From assembly GCF_004363245.1 (NCBI RefSeq), contig NZ_SNYV01000018.1:124001-188000 (forward strand): DNA of 64,000 nucleotides. Reading direction: 5' to 3'. Under the pieces are notes generated by a model that saw only the letters and a program-made list of their open reading frames with translations, was not told the DNA's origin and searched no databases. The stretch's first letter is position 1; every line of letters starts with the position of its first letter. Position numbers and translations under genes: made by a program. This document shows positions 26,098 to 32,732 of the stretch, one piece after another. The DNA comes from Sphingobacterium yanglingense. GTDB lineage: Bacteria > Bacteroidota > Bacteroidia > Sphingobacteriales > Sphingobacteriaceae.

Positions 26098-26447
26098 TTA
26101 TTTTCGATAGCAGACGACTTAGGTATAGCGATAGAATTTAAATTATTTAATTTGCTGATAAATAGTGTTTAACGGTCTTGTTTCTAAAATGGGACTTTCA
26201 ATCTATTTGCCGCTAATATAGCTTAGATATGAAACATTGTTTTAGGGATGGAAGAGGTCTGCCTATGGGGCAGGGTGATGCCCTATCACAAATATCCCAT
26301 CATTACAATCGAAATGTAATGGAGAGAAGTAACCCTGCAGGGCTCATCGGAGATAATCTATTTGAAAGACTGCTTCTTCCGCTTGGGCGGAATCGCAGTG
26401 ACGAGCTGGAGCGCAATGACGATAATGACGAAGGTGTTGAAAGCCTT
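26098..26447. other. Gene-free left flank of the 11-bp array
   Basis: No credible gene. It holds AT-rich sequence to about 26230, a 10-bp palindrome CCCTGCAGGG (26333-26342), and from about 26371 a repeat resembling the scattered chromosomal repeats described below, including the hairpin TTCCGC-TTGG-GCGGAA (26377-26392) and CGAAGG/CCTTCG (26429-26434 / 26444-26449). Confidence 0.6.
26371..26433 (-). repeat. Interspersed palindromic repeat (CGTCATTGCG family), diverged copy
   Basis: Read on the minus strand it contains TCGTCATTGCG, TTCCGCCCAAGCGGAA and GAAGCAGTCTTT in order, the same arrangement as the copy at 36772-36800 (CGTCATTGCGAA...GAAGCAATCTC). It borders the left end of the 11-bp array. 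Confidence 0.5.
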
Positions 26448-27426
26448 CGTACTACGTTCGGACTGGCTTCGCCTTTGCTTCGGCCGTACATCACAGATTC
26501 ATCACGTATTCAACACAGATTTAACACCTCCGAATCGAGAATCGTCGATGAAAAGGTGATAGAAAGGTGTTCCGGAGGTAGTGAAACTCCGAAGCTGGTA
26601 CGGAGCAGGTACGAATCTGGTCAGGAGCAGGGCGGTTATGAAGCTCCCGGCTTGGCACCTACTGTGTACCAACTTAGTTCTGCCCAGGTTCTACCTTGGT
26701 TCAACCAAAAGTCTATCATTCCTCGGTGGTTTCTCGGTCGTTCTTCGATGGATACTCGGTCACAATCGTGTAACCATCGAGGCGTCACCGTGCGTTCATC
26801 GAGTAAAAGTGGGAGCAGGTCAGGTCTTGGGAGATACCAAGTAGGAACTTTGTCTACTTATTTACCGCCTTTTGCTCGTTATTTTATTGCCTCCGAGGCA
26901 ACGGATAGGCAAACAATAGGCAAAGAACAGGCAACGGATAGGCAGAGAACAGGCAAAGAAAAGGCAAACAAATACCAAGCGAAGCCCAAGCCAATCCCAG
27001 AGAAAGAGCAAGGAACAGATAGAGAACGGGTAGAGAATAAGCAGGGGATAACCGCTGTTTCTACTTTGGGGGTACTTAGGCAATACATTGCGGGGATAGT
27101 TCCCATAGGGATTAAGCGTATATATAGTAGGGGTATAGTATGTCTTACGCAGGCATTGTGTAAAGCTATAGACCTACATAATACCTACATAATACCTACA
27201 TTATACCTACATTATACCCGCATAATAGTCGCATTAGTGGTGTGCTTAAGAACCGAAAGGTTTCAACACTTCCTCTGAACTTGCTAAGAACCGTCTATGA
27301 ACCAGAAACACACATAAAGGGAACAGGGAACATGCATAAACGGTACATGCCCGACACATGTTTGACACCTATTCAACACAATAACGGTACATGTTTGACA
27401 CATCAACCTCACAAGGATGACACAAT
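26448..27426. repeat. Degenerate 11-bp tandem array, about 89 units in one continuous phase
   Basis: Cutting the sequence every 11 bp from 26448 gives units whose neighbours resemble each other all the way to 27426, without a phase slip. Examples: CGGACTGGCTT (26459) and CGCCTTTGCTT (26470); CACAGATTCAT (26492) and CACAGATTTAA (26514); TCGGTCGTTCT (26734) and TCGGTCACAAT (26756); CAACGGATAGG at 26899 and again at 26932; CTACATAATAC at 27174 and 27185, CTACATTATAC at 27196 and 27207; AACGGTACATG at 27339 and 27383. The consensus drifts slowly from one end to the other. Because 11 is not a multiple of 3, stop-free units leave several frames open, which explains the long but meaningless ORFs here. 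Not CRISPR-like. Function unknown. Confidence 0.85.
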
Positions 27427-27711
27427 AAAGTGCGGTAGTGAGGGAGAGGGAGATTGCTTCGGTGTAGTTCTTCTAGCGTGCAATGGCGTGGAGTTGGGAT
27501 GTGCTATCTCTTTCGATTTTAGCGTTTTTAAGGGATGCTGTGAGTCTCAAATAGCAAAAGGTATGTCTTTGTGTGTAAAAAGAAAAACAAGTCCTCCACT
27601 AGGGTTCCCGAAAGATTGGGGCATAGCGCAGTGACGTTCGTAACTTGGTCTATCGCTTGTGCTTGTCTTTGTATTGGGATAGATTGGGGATGGAATGGAA
27701 AGGGCTGACGC
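27427..27711. other. Gene-free right flank of the 11-bp array
   Basis: No credible gene; an open frame of 130 codons (27242-27634) starts inside the array and has no family features. The 11-bp phase is no longer clear after about 27437, though GGGATAGATTG (27676) is followed 11 bp later by GGGATGGAATG, suggesting a decayed tail. The region ends at the terminator of the outer-membrane protein gene. Confidence 0.5.
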
Positions 27712-27745: not shown

Positions 27746-28309
27746 TTAAAATCTGTAACCTACAGATAGCCCTAGGACTCTGTTATTAGCGTCAAGCTCT
27801 TTGCTCAGTTTGTTGATACCGTGGTTGTATTTCAGGTCGATGGAAAATTGTTTGATATCGGTTCCGATATTGATCAATCCATCGTAGGTTACTGTATTGA
27901 AATTATTGGTATATGCCTTGTTTTTCTTCAACTGATAGTTTAGTTGTGCTCCGATTGCTGTTCGCAAAGTGAGCTTGTCTGATTCTATCACACGATATCC
28001 CAATTGGACAGGCAAGTTTAACTGATAGAATTTTGGAGTGTATTGGGGATTGTCGATGCTGTAAGCAAATTTGTAGTAGGACATCCCTAGATCTACCTGA
28101 CCATAGAGACGCTCCTTGGTGCGTACAAAAGCGCCTGCCTCAAAGCCAATTTTTGAATCCGAGCCTTTTACCATGTTAGCCCCAAAAGATGGCATGTGGT
28201 ACTGACCACCGATTTTTACGCCAAAGTCAACCTCTTGTGCTTTTGTTTGCTGATTAAGACCGAATCCCATTGCTGCTAAAAGCAGGCCGTACGTTAATTG
28301 TTTTTTCAT
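27746..28309 (-). CDS. Outer membrane beta-barrel protein (porin/PorT-like)
   Basis: 187 residues with a signal peptide (KKQLTYGLLLAAMGFGLNQQTKAQ). The rest is alternating polar/hydrophobic strands typical of an eight-strand barrel (DFGVKIGGQYHMPSFGANM; LNLPVQLGYRVIESDKLTLRTAIGAQLNYQL) and it ends with an aromatic Phe (VLGLSVGYRF), the barrel-assembly signal. It matches the OMP_b-brl_2 group common in Bacteroidota. Specific function unknown. It is a single gene with its own terminator. Confidence 0.85.
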   Translation of the reverse strand: MKKQLTYGLLLAAMGFGLNQQTKAQEVDFGVKIGGQYHMPSFGANMVKGSDSKIGFEAGAFVRTKERLYGQVDLGMSYYKFAYSIDNPQYTPKFYQLNLPVQLGYRVIESDKLTLRTAIGAQLNYQLKKNKAYTNNFNTVTYDGLINIGTDIKQFSIDLKYNHGINKLSKELDANNRVLGLSVGYRF

Positions 28310-29417: not shown

Positions 29418-29951
29418 ATGTCTTTGGAGAAAGAAACAAAATTTGAGCAGGTATTTCGAGCGCACTTTAAGGCTTTGCATGGCTATGCCTACAAAATTCT
29501 TGAAGATTCGGATGCTGCTGAAGAAGCTGTACAACAGGTGTTTTTACGATTTTGGGAGCGGGACTGGGAGAATACGATCCATACTTCCGTAAAATCGTAT
29601 CTCTATAAATCGGTCTATTATGAATGCCTGAACGTGTTGAAGCGAGGGCAGCTCAAGCAGCGGTACGAAGCCTACCGGCAGCACAATGGAGATATGGAGG
29701 CGCATATAGATGGTACGGATACGGAGCTTAAGAAGCAATTGCATGTAGCGCTGGCCAAGCTGCCCGAGAAAAGTAGGGCCGTGTTTGAGATGAGCCGCTT
29801 TCAGGAACTCAAATACCATGAGATAGCCCAGGTTCTCGAGCTGTCGCTGAAGACCGTCGAAGGGCATATGACCAAGGCGCTACGTCACTTGAGGGTTCAT
29901 CTGGCAGATTATTTAAATGTTGTTGTCTTTTTATTAATCAATGGGTTATGA
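29418..29951 (+). CDS. ECF-type RNA polymerase sigma factor
   Basis: 177 residues. Region 2 (FEQVFRAHFKALHGYAYKILEDSDAAEEAVQQVFLRFWE) and region 4 (LPEKSRAVFEMSRFQELKYHEIAQVLELSLKTVEGHMTKALRHLR) are complete, with the helix-turn-helix at the end. This is the sigma-70 family form typical of Bacteroidota SusCD/FecR systems. Its stop overlaps the start of the FecR gene by 4 bp (ATGA), so sigma and anti-sigma are coupled. It would direct transcription of the operon or a target regulon when FecR receives an envelope signal. Confidence 0.94.
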   Translation: MSLEKETKFEQVFRAHFKALHGYAYKILEDSDAAEEAVQQVFLRFWERDWENTIHTSVKSYLYKSVYYECLNVLKRGQLKQRYEAYRQHNGDMEAHIDGTDTELKKQLHVALAKLPEKSRAVFEMSRFQELKYHEIAQVLELSLKTVEGHMTKALRHLRVHLADYLNVVVFLLINGL

Positions 29952-30916
29952 ATAAGGAAGAATTAGTGAAATATATAAGCGGTGATCTGCCTGTAGAGCA
30001 AAGGGAAGTTGTGGAGGCTTGGATCAGGGAGAGTGCCGAACACGAAAAGGAATATGAGGATATGAAAAAGATATGGGAGTGGAGCGGGGCTTCAGACGAA
30101 AGTCCGGAGGTGGACGTGGATCGTGCATGGGCTGATTTTAAAAAGCTCCGGGATACACAGCCGCAGCAGACCGTAGTAGTAAAAGAGATTAAGCGCTCCA
30201 GAAGCTGGAAGCCATGGACGGTGGCCGCAGCGATCATCACGTTGTTGCTGTCTTCTGCCGGTATCTTGCGATGGACACTATCTACAGATATGACGCTGGT
30301 CTCTAATGATGCGCTGCAGCAGGCTGGGCTTCCCGATGGTAGTACGGTATACCTCAATAAGCAGACCGCACTGGATTATAAGAAGGGCTGGCTGGCCAAA
30401 GAGCGCACAGTGGTTCTTAGCAAGGGGGAGGCTTTCTTTGATGTCAAGCGGGATACGACGCAGCCTTTTGTCATTCAGAGTGGTAATAGTAAGATTACGG
30501 TGCTGGGTACTAGTTTTCATGTGCGCAGAGCGGATGGTGAGACGGAGGTGATTGTTTCTTCTGGATCTGTACAGGTGGATCATGGGGAGAATAGCGTGCG
30601 CTTGAAGCCGAATGATAGGGTGCTGATTCAAGATACGGCACGTACGAAGGTTAAAGTGCATACCGTAGAGGATCAGCTATACAAGTATTATATCCATCAG
30701 GAGTTTATTTTTGAGAATACCCCTTTGAGCCGTGTTTTTGATGTGTTGGGTAAGGCTTTTGATAAAAAATTCGTAGTCGTAAATGACAAGGACAAGACGC
30801 TACGCTACACGGCATCATTCGAGCGGCAGACATTGAATGAAATGTTGGATGTGATATTGAAGACTTTTGAATTGAAAATTGAGAAAAAAGGTAATGTATA
30901 TTATATTAAAGGATAA
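29948..30916 (+). CDS. FecR-family anti-sigma factor
   Basis: 322 residues. Cytoplasmic anti-sigma region (residues about 1-85), one membrane helix (WTVAAAIITLLLSSAGILRW, about 87-107), and a periplasmic FecR domain (DGSTVYLNKQTALDYKKGW; EAFFDVKRDTTQPFVIQSGNSKITVLGTSFHVR) followed by DUF4974 (FENTPLSRVFDVLGKAFDKKFVV; TLNEMLDVILKTFELKIEKKGNVYYI). Length and order are standard. It would hold the ECF sigma factor inactive until a periplasmic signal arrives. Coupled to the sigma gene by 4-bp overlap. Confidence 0.94.
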   Translation: MNKEELVKYISGDLPVEQREVVEAWIRESAEHEKEYEDMKKIWEWSGASDESPEVDVDRAWADFKKLRDTQPQQTVVVKEIKRSRSWKPWTVAAAIITLLLSSAGILRWTLSTDMTLVSNDALQQAGLPDGSTVYLNKQTALDYKKGWLAKERTVVLSKGEAFFDVKRDTTQPFVIQSGNSKITVLGTSFHVRRADGETEVIVSSGSVQVDHGENSVRLKPNDRVLIQDTARTKVKVHTVEDQLYKYYIHQEFIFENTPLSRVFDVLGKAFDKKFVVVNDKDKTLRYTASFERQTLNEMLDVILKTFELKIEKKGNVYYIKG

Positions 30917-30923
30917 TGCTGTT

Positions 30924-32732
30924 ATGTACCAGCTTGTTAGAAGCTTTAAGATGATGGTTTATTTCATACGTAAAGCCAAGTTTTTTGTAGCACTGTCTAT
31001 CTTTATTTTCGTGCAGACAGATGTCATGTCGCAAACAAAATTGGCGCAGGAGGTGAAGATGCCTGCTTATGGTAAGCGTCCTGTAGGGGAGTTTCTAGAG
31101 ACTCTACAAAAGGACAAGGGGCTCTTGTTCTCTTATAACAGTCAATTGTTGGATGTCGATAGTCTGATTCAGGCCAATTCGTACAATGGAGTGCTGATCG
31201 GTTATCTGGAGAGCTGCTTGGGGCCGCGGTATTCATTCAAGGAGACAGCGACTCATATCATTATTAGCCGATCGGACTGGCGGATGGTGGTCGAGCAGGT
31301 GGATATTGATCTCAAACAGCAGAATAAAACCATGATCTCTGGATATGTCAGGGATTTGCGTAGTAATAAGCCGCTGTCTTTTGCCAGTGTGTACGATAAG
31401 GGAACTTATCTAGCTACATTGACAAACAAGGATGGTTTTTTTGAGCTAGATGTCAAGAAACCGGAGAATAGGGTCATTATAGGCCTCAATAAGGAAAATT
31501 ACAGGGATACGACATTGATTCTTTTGCTGCCGGTAGAGGTGGCCAAAGACAGTAAAGCCAAGAAAGTAGGCTACTACGTGCTGGAGGATTCGAGCCGTAA
31601 TATCTATAAAACGTTCTTAGGGGCAGCATTTAGCAGTACATCACAGCGTATTCAGAGTGCAAATCTGGGTGGTTTCTTTATCTACAGCCCGTATCAGATG
31701 TCATTGACTCCAGGGTTGAGTACACATGGTTTCTTTAATTCGCAGATTGTAAATAAGGTCTCGATAAATATACTGGGGGGATCTACGGCTGGGGTAGACG
31801 GTGTGGAGTTTGCTGGGGTTTTCAACCTTAACCAGTATAAAGTGCGTGGGCTGCAGATGGCCGGTGGAGTGAATGTGGTCGGTGGTGATGTATCGGGGGT
31901 ACAAATGGCTGGCTTGGGCAATGTGGTCTTGCGCAATGTGAACGGGGTACAGCTAGCAGGAGGCTGGAACAAGGTAGATACAACCGAGGGACTGCAGCTT
32001 GCTGGGGTGATCAATATGGCTAAGGAGGTACGTGGCGGACAGCTCGCTGGTGGGATCAATTATGTAAAGGATACGGTGCAGTATCAGCTGGCCGGTGTGA
32101 TGAATAGAGGTGCTGTTGTCAAAGGGGTGCAGCTGGCTGGAGGAATCAATATCGCTAAAGAGAATACCGGTAGTCAACTTGCTGGTGTGATTAATATTGC
32201 GAAGAAAGTCAAAGGAGTACAGGTGGCTTCTTTAATTAATATTGGAGATAGTAGTGACTACCCGATAGCGATTTTCAACTGGATTAAAAATGGGCGGCGG
32301 GAGCTGACATTGGCTATAGATGAAAGCAGTTACCTGGGCTTGAATTTTAAGTCGGGGGGTCGTGTATTGTATAGCTCGCTGGGGATCGGTACTTATTTAG
32401 ATCATGCTTCTTTTCGATATGGTGTAGAGGTGGGATTGGGGGCTAATCTGATCGATGGAAAGAGATTTGCGTTGTCTGCTGAACTGACGCAGCGTATGCA
32501 TATGGATAAAGACCTGGGATGGATGGACGCTTCCCGTTCTACCTTGCGCATCATGCCATCGTATGTATTCTCTAAACATTGGCGGGTATATGTAGCACCA
32601 TCGTTGAACTATACGCAGGCTGCTACTGTTGCGAATCAGGAGGGAAAAGCGGTTTGGCGATTCTGGAAAGGTGAAGCCGATCAGAATACCTTTCATGCTG
32701 GTGTAGCTGCTGGTTTATCGTATCGTTTTTAA
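30924..32732 (+). CDS. STN plus carboxypeptidase-regulatory-like domain protein with surface repeats
   Basis: 602 residues from the ATG at 30924 (8 bp after the FecR stop; an ATG at 30951 would give a tighter signal peptide). Order: signal peptide, an STN/secretin-like domain (residues about 45-130, PVGEFLETLQKDKGLLFSYNSQLLDVDSL), a carboxypeptidase-regulatory-like beta-sandwich (ISGYVRDLRSNKPLSFASVYDKGTY), then ten short repeats of about 15-16 residues with the core GVQLAGxINxAKxVK (residues about 285-450), recalling the leptospiral LA_2272-type surface repeats, and a C-terminal beta-rich region ending Phe. It occupies the position of a TonB receptor in FecR systems, but no TonB plug or barrel is present. 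Confidence 0.78.
   Translation: MYQLVRSFKMMVYFIRKAKFFVALSIFIFVQTDVMSQTKLAQEVKMPAYGKRPVGEFLETLQKDKGLLFSYNSQLLDVDSLIQANSYNGVLIGYLESCLGPRYSFKETATHIIISRSDWRMVVEQVDIDLKQQNKTMISGYVRDLRSNKPLSFASVYDKGTYLATLTNKDGFFELDVKKPENRVIIGLNKENYRDTTLILLLPVEVAKDSKAKKVGYYVLEDSSRNIYKTFLGAAFSSTSQRIQSANLGGFFIYSPYQMSLTPGLSTHGFFNSQIVNKVSINILGGSTAGVDGVEFAGVFNLNQYKVRGLQMAGGVNVVGGDVSGVQMAGLGNVVLRNVNGVQLAGGWNKVDTTEGLQLAGVINMAKEVRGGQLAGGINYVKDTVQYQLAGVMNRGAVVKGVQLAGGINIAKENTGSQLAGVINIAKKVKGVQVASLINIGDSSDYPIAIFNWIKNGRRELTLAIDESSYLGLNFKSGGRVLYSSLGIGTYLDHASFRYGVEVGLGANLIDGKRFALSAELTQRMHMDKDLGWMDASRSTLRIMPSYVFSKHWRVYVAPSLNYTQAATVANQEGKAVWRFWKGEADQNTFHAGVAAGLSYRF

Follow-up and report, generated by a model that had tools for sequence, protein, structure and literature searches.

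In-frame palindromic elements are already known. Rickettsia palindromic elements (RPEs) are palindromic repeats that are inserted in frame within coding genes and are found outside genes as well (PMC10969869). CGTC REPs were reported in Bacteroidetes without a dedicated transposase and, according to the accessible part of that description, may sit inside ORFs, with intragenic REP clusters encoding 43–82 aa (PMC3733652). PARCELs, found in membrane-targeted proteins, are coding repeats that vary in number and whose DNA shows dyad symmetry; shuffling within and between genomes was suggested for them (PMC2996958).

Here, we describe an array of 11-bp units in a 64-kb stretch of Sphingobacterium yanglingense DNA (the whole stretch that was analysed, hereafter the window). 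Judging from sequence comparisons, we consider it fairly likely that the array is a translated pre-signal-peptide leader of a SusC/RagA-type receptor that was repeatedly filled with spreading palindromic DNA, and that the copy in the window is an orphan remnant of such a leader.

Period and extent of the array

Lag-11 identity across positions 26448–27426 was 0.494 by autocorrelation, compared with 0.273 in local shuffles (z = 15.7), and identity was also raised at lags 22 (0.450, z = 13.2), 33 (0.374, z = 8.0) and 44 (0.324, z = 4.7); the null consisted of shuffles inside 50-bp blocks, with means of 0.26–0.27. Lags 10 and 12 were at or below chance over the same interval, and neither ever replaced lag 11 in 66-bp windows. 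In such windows the signal rose at ~26421 and ended at ~27420 on the forward strand, and no second period-11 array was found at the same threshold elsewhere in the 64-kb window. The first-pass annotation had expected peaks at 11, 22 and 33 confined to ~26448–27437, and on both counts the array is real. When units were cut as it described, the identities that it had counted by eye were recovered (8 of 11 for 26492/26503 and 9 of 11 for 26547/26558), and a recount found the pairs 26899/26932, 27174/27185, 27196/27207 and 27339/27383 to be identical. TRF detected only the best blocks of the array. We also concur that it is not a CRISPR, an attC site or a minisatellite with a single consensus. The unbroken phase under a drifting consensus stood only in part: one phase is kept within blocks, but what looks like drift is a succession of blocks, of which several are palindromic, and the phase between blocks of differing consensus is undefined.

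Arrays in the leaders of SusC/RagA-type receptors

In a related long copy (L009), the array is part of a single open frame of at least 1308 aa. This frame begins with MKHFFRGG, passes through the array and continues into a pre-signal segment (NDLRMNRLILRSFRSLCEDFRAKMESMVVKENRGRQIALKQA), a signal-like hydrophobic stretch, a CarboxypepD_reg-like region and a TonB Plug domain, the layout of a SusC/RagA-type receptor. Past the ~600-aa leader, Pfam matched Plug, with CarbopepD_reg-like just below the cut-off. Open frames from array to SusC were also present in L016 (1275 aa), L017 (1118 aa) and L010 (1054 aa), and in-frame SusC fusions were found in L282, L285, L286, L288, L289 and L298. The initial view that the array is not coding must therefore be given up, since homologous arrays share a single open frame with SusC receptors, a homologous protein thus aligning in one frame, and the window itself holds a frame that is open from 26217 to 27275.

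In 13 long arrays the receptor frame contained zero stops in 702–1461 nt each, where shuffles expect 13–27 each, and the other two forward frames contained 8–39 stops. As these 13 frames had been selected as long open frames, a separate count of SusC-adjacent arrays that does not depend on that choice was made, covering 44 Sphingobacterium arrays with a peak score ≥ 0.5 and accepting a SusC match ≤ 1.5 kb downstream. A downstream SusC was found for 19 of the 44 (L017 and L288 each supplying two array segments), and 16 of the 19 were stop-free from array to receptor over 112–551 codons, placing the array in the Plug/CarbopepD_reg frame. The three exceptions were L290, a frame-broken decayed copy, and L023 and L025, in which the SusC match, at a distance of ~1 kb, is probably part of an adjacent gene; the L023 array shares its open frame with a thioredoxin-like protein. 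In a blind check, SusC paralogues of four genomes (G007, G010, G013 and G014), chosen by receptor similarity and a long open frame and not by array DNA similarity, had 11-bp arrays in their leaders (L326–L329).

The hosts seen were SusC plus two thioredoxin-like (TlpA-type) exported proteins, which the array leader precedes in L296 and L023; because these two genes carry the same type of leader, it is not tied to SusC. The leader arrays of L010 (2533–3340) and L017 (3360–4210) were interrupted by the same two-ORF module, in which one array ORF ends ...YNYDVxRRxQENRKT... and is followed by a 134–139-aa protein (...LEKNFHLILPFEM...) with no Pfam match above cut-off. The genome of the window also has a second class of arrays, short, degenerate and apparently of 8-bp period (TTAACNNG / TTATCAAG; L043, L046, L047, L048 and L053), which adjoin or sit inside SusC leaders.

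Leader length varies widely between paralogues with the same start. Short-leader SusC paralogues in the genome of the window and in G009 share the start M[KR][QH]FFRGGR.LP.GQ with array-bearing ones, and the start codon context is conserved and A-rich (AAAAATG; AAAAATGA) in both. The distance from the start to STGYQ was 142–183 aa in the short paralogues versus 240–728 aa in the array-bearing ones; the far shorter leaders found behind this shared start mark the array-bearing version as an expansion. The true receptor start could lie further downstream than the shared ATG; no downstream Met was common to all copies (for example, L016 has EKRLIL where L009 has MNRLIL). Short leaders already hold REP-encoded peptides, such as RLLHFVRNDE. 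Between aligned leaders pN/pS was 0.45–1.18, mostly 0.7–0.9, and differences were near-equal over the codon positions, so that the amino acids are nearly free. The leader peptide is thus hardly under selection; the openness of its frame is.

The window copy keeps much of this organisation on the forward strand. Its leader ORF (26229–27278, 349 aa, MKHCFRDGRG...) is a homologue of the leader that precedes the signal peptide in SusC-type receptors, has a start motif in common with the MKHFFRGG and MRQFFRGG paralogues, and shares the DNA upstream of its ATG with L009. At the left edge of the array, a CGTC-REP-like stem-loop, GACTGCTTC...CGCAGTGACG (26368–26403), encodes RLLLPLGRNRSDE; the same element occurs alone at three loci of the same genome (L042, L045 and L052). 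It is followed by two hairpins identified by palindrome scan and covariation, both ungapped imperfect palindromes: H1 (26457–26626, centre 26541.5, arms of 85 nt) and H2 (26666–26848, centre 26757, arms of 91 nt). Next come the block most widely shared between species, GGCAACGGATA/GGCAAAGAACA (26896–26978), which is mostly identical to L009, and hairpin H3 (27111–27226), a CTACATAATAC block found by palindrome scan with its centre at 27168.5 and arms of 58 nt that are 69% complementary.

In translation, H3 uses the frame that it has in L289, a SusC-linked copy, and the next block, LPLNLLRTVYEPET, falls in another (27182–27631), so that the leader frame is lost over 27229–27262. A second open frame (27182–27634) carries the remaining leader (LPLNLLRTVYEPET..., FSVFKGCCESQIAKGMSLCVKRK), which is recognisable to ~27600 before a stop ends it, and the right edge is marked by a decayed REP-like stem-loop, GATTGCTTCGG...GCAATGGCG (27452–27488), recognised by comparison with L009, L010 and L016. 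No receptor follows the window leader; instead, an outer-membrane beta-barrel gene lies on the other strand (27746–28309). Because the start and leader are kept, the frame is lost at ~27229–27262 and the receptor body is absent, we read the window copy as probably an orphan remnant leader that lost its receptor. Elsewhere in the window, an ORF at 30879–32732 contains 45- and 48-bp coding repeats (QLAGV.N motifs, 31700–32200) and lies downstream of genes for an ECF sigma factor (29418–29951) and a FecR anti-sigma factor (29948–30916).

Spread, palindromes and rival explanations

DNA searches found arrays of the same kind in the genome of the window at C1:510.7–512.0 kb, C1:35.0–37.2 kb, C1:251 kb and C1:774 kb, on C6 and C14, and at other places, and matches in 18 of 93 same-genus genomes (E ≤ 1e-5). 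A 400-kb sample of stretches from the same genome, on which the estimate of array density rests, contained two more arrays at lag 11. Long copies at separate loci share blocks at 70–98% identity and differ in block content, and gapped pairwise alignments of whole arrays come out too fragmented for indels to be scored modulo 11; other long copies cut every 11 bp show the same phased blocks with other sequences, e.g. (TCGAAGNNNNN)n and (AAAGGTACTNN)n. A scan for TCGAAG occurring three times at 11-bp spacing across 84,980 species genomes gave at least 117 stretches, and 82 of those listed came from Bacteroidota, as judged by record titles. Among the matches listed were S. paucimobilis HER1398, S. 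wenxiniae, Olivibacter, Parapedobacter, Paraflavisolibacter, Breznakibacter and Bacteroidales.

Similar 11-bp palindromic arrays across Bacteroidota were mostly intergenic, and many of those in other Bacteroidota consist of a single palindrome with a left arm (CTTCGANNNNN)n and a right arm (NNNNNTCGAAG)n. Their neighbours in other genomes, assigned with a crude ORF caller, were arranged in tandem in 32 cases, convergently in 10 and divergently in 8; this shows no clear preference of orientation, and a 3'-end or terminator-like placement was rejected. In Bacteroidales RUG737 (L060, L072, L083, L109, L114 and L115) many pattern matches were placed at or near contig ends, which looks as if 11-bp palindromic arrays break assembly. 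A scan of viral contigs with three copies of GCAAAG gave short stretches that are perhaps merely the motif.

Each long array contains several ungapped imperfect palindromes in series. Those in the window scored 18.4 (centre 26541.5), 19.0 (26757) and 25.6 (27168.5), compared with a maximum of 16.0 in ten column-permuted controls, which preserve period and composition, and the first two recur in register in L009 (centres 2858 and 3079). The chief rival to filling by palindromic repeats starts from these structures: the array would be a functional mRNA leader in which serial hairpins adjust translation, mRNA lifetime or the amount of receptor, the open frame lets ribosomes pass, and each 11-bp unit makes one A-form RNA helical turn. 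We regard this as possible but doubtful. It would account for the near-neutral amino acids and for the folding of long-array RNAs, which beat shuffles with z-scores of −3 to −10 (8 shuffles per long array), but both strands fold about equally well. It would also explain the kept pairing: 16 of 46 pairs in H1 carried double substitutions with pairing intact (shuffle mean 8.6, 0 of 500 as high; slid controls 3–5), as did 12 of 42 in H2 (shuffle mean 8.2, 5 of 500 as high; slid controls 2–8), counts that lean towards the tested structures because these were predicted on the same alignments; with the ungapped palindrome as the structure, which is free of that bias, 18 and 10 pairs were still doubly changed.

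Selection on mRNA structure, as opposed to correction of palindromes, could account for such covariation. Among pairs with a Watson-Crick consensus, GU occurred in 45 and AC in 23, an excess that favours sense RNA, whereas the raw palindromes of 13 leaders had GU in 200 versus AC in 172, near the composition expectation, leaving these counts ambiguous between mRNA-hairpin selection and DNA-level palindrome correction. No Rfam family reached its gathering score for the array, and the two sub-threshold matches were to microRNAs only. A dedicated mRNA function also has to contend with the existence of the same palindromic arrays without SusC, and in these genomes the majority of SusC paralogues have no array. 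A broader formulation is equally tentative: the arrays may form an undescribed Bacteroidota class of 11-bp-phased palindromic arrays with one unit per A-form turn, in which pairing is kept by selection or palindrome-templated repair, and which in Sphingobacterium would serve as a translated mRNA leader, common to SusC and thioredoxin-like genes, that carries receptor expression via serial hairpins.

It is unlikely that the leader is phase-variable or hypervariable, such that adding or dropping a single 11-bp unit changes the frame and toggles the receptor, the window copy and L290 being off or worn-out states. The array does occupy the 5' end of an ORF for a surface receptor, a step of 11 is not divisible by 3, some adjacent units are identical (27174/27185 and 27196/27207) and two related copies are frame-broken (window and L290), but most units, at only ~50% identity, have diverged too far to slip often, 16 of the 19 copies have kept their frame, and the window frame breaks between blocks and outside the identical units. 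We find it highly improbable that the peptide itself functions as a hendecad (11-residue) repeat domain of the receptor leader: although some blocks give an 11-aa repeat (SRRxVEAxSNS...) from 11-bp DNA repeats, the DNA period is 11 and not only 33, the leader precedes the signal peptide, and a peptide domain was rejected on a pN/pS near 1 and the lack of a Pfam domain in the leader, which showed neither the low pN/pS nor the third-position excess of a protein-constrained repeat domain. A protein-loading or structural DNA site with an incidental open frame has very little probability: it fits the strict 11-bp phase and the Bacteroidota-wide occurrence of 11-bp palindromic arrays, but 16 of 19 frames open over 112–551 codons cannot be chance, and the consensus varies between blocks and copies. 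The B-DNA turn is 10.5 bp and 11-bp units slip half a base per unit; because of this drift, and because same-period arrays elsewhere differ in sequence, the earlier proposal that a bound protein meets its sites on one face of the DNA is weak and unsupported.

Under the explanation we favour, filling of a receptor leader with palindromic repeats, palindromic DNA akin in style to CGTC REPs would have entered a permissive stretch that separates the start codon from the signal peptide, giving a CGTC-REP-like stem-loop at either edge and a middle chain of ~100–180-bp imperfect palindromes, with arms made up of 11-bp direct repeats. The palindromes may have spread as non-autonomous elements, as RPEs do, and may have grown in 11-bp steps by slippage plus strand-switching at palindromes, with the receptor frame merely filtering out stops and net frameshifts. 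The templated amplification suggested by the first-pass annotation may be the origin of the array, because strand-switching and slippage yield palindromes plus in-phase repeats. No mobilising enzyme was found for the arrays.

Comparison with described palindromic elements

Literature searches on 11-bp Bacteroidota repeats, SusC leader repeats and the exact motifs found nothing, most subscription journals lying outside the search; within the searchable literature, no description was found of the strict phase of 11 bp, of lengths reaching ~500 codons or of the site before the SusC signal peptide. Palindromic repeat DNA here occupies hundreds of codons of a surface receptor with the frame unbroken. 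The occurrence of short and long receptor versions side by side makes it directly testable whether such leaders are tolerated or regulatory, and period-11 arrays across Bacteroidota raise the question of which enzyme or structure sets the step of 11.

REP/BIME elements with RAYTs resemble the arrays as dispersed palindromes that, in other species, are mostly intergenic. A GTAG REP mobilised by a RAYT was rejected because the Y1 transposase (PF01797) had 0 matches in both array-rich genomes tested, that of the window (G000) and G009, an absence that agrees with the lack of a dedicated transposase reported in the accessible text on CGTC REPs (PMC3733652). A same-genus genome (G002) had twelve PF01797 matches, many of them truncated.

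What PARCELs share with the arrays is a variable number of coding repeats in DNA with dyad symmetry (PMC2996958), but their unit is a 25-residue repeat with conserved hydrophobic residues; the array has an 11-bp DNA unit and nearly unconstrained amino acids, and its DNA period is not that of a 25-residue unit.

The likeness to CGTC REPs lies at the array edges, where the stem-loops end in CGTCACTGCG / CGTCATTGCG. As far as the description in PMC3733652 is accessible, the tag of the left-edge stem-loop fits it, and a 20–40-bp stem-loop with a CGTC tag at one end and many copies is found at 26368–26403 and other loci. The whole element is not a CGTC stem-loop or a cluster of them: its 1-kb middle is an 11-bp-periodic chain of longer palindromes, and such a chain between the edges, of up to ~500 codons, is absent from the accessible part of that description. 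The leader arrays far exceed the 20–82 residues reported for intragenic REPs.

RPEs work in the same way as in-frame palindromic DNA (PMC10969869), a likeness drawn by description, and the palindromes, open frame and presence of short and expanded SusC paralogues in one genome are those of an RPE-like in-frame insertion. They differ in that RPEs are ~150 bp long and sit in many unrelated metabolic genes, whereas the arrays reach up to 1.4 kb, keep an 11-bp phase and occupy the pre-signal leader of one receptor family and of two thioredoxin-like exported proteins.
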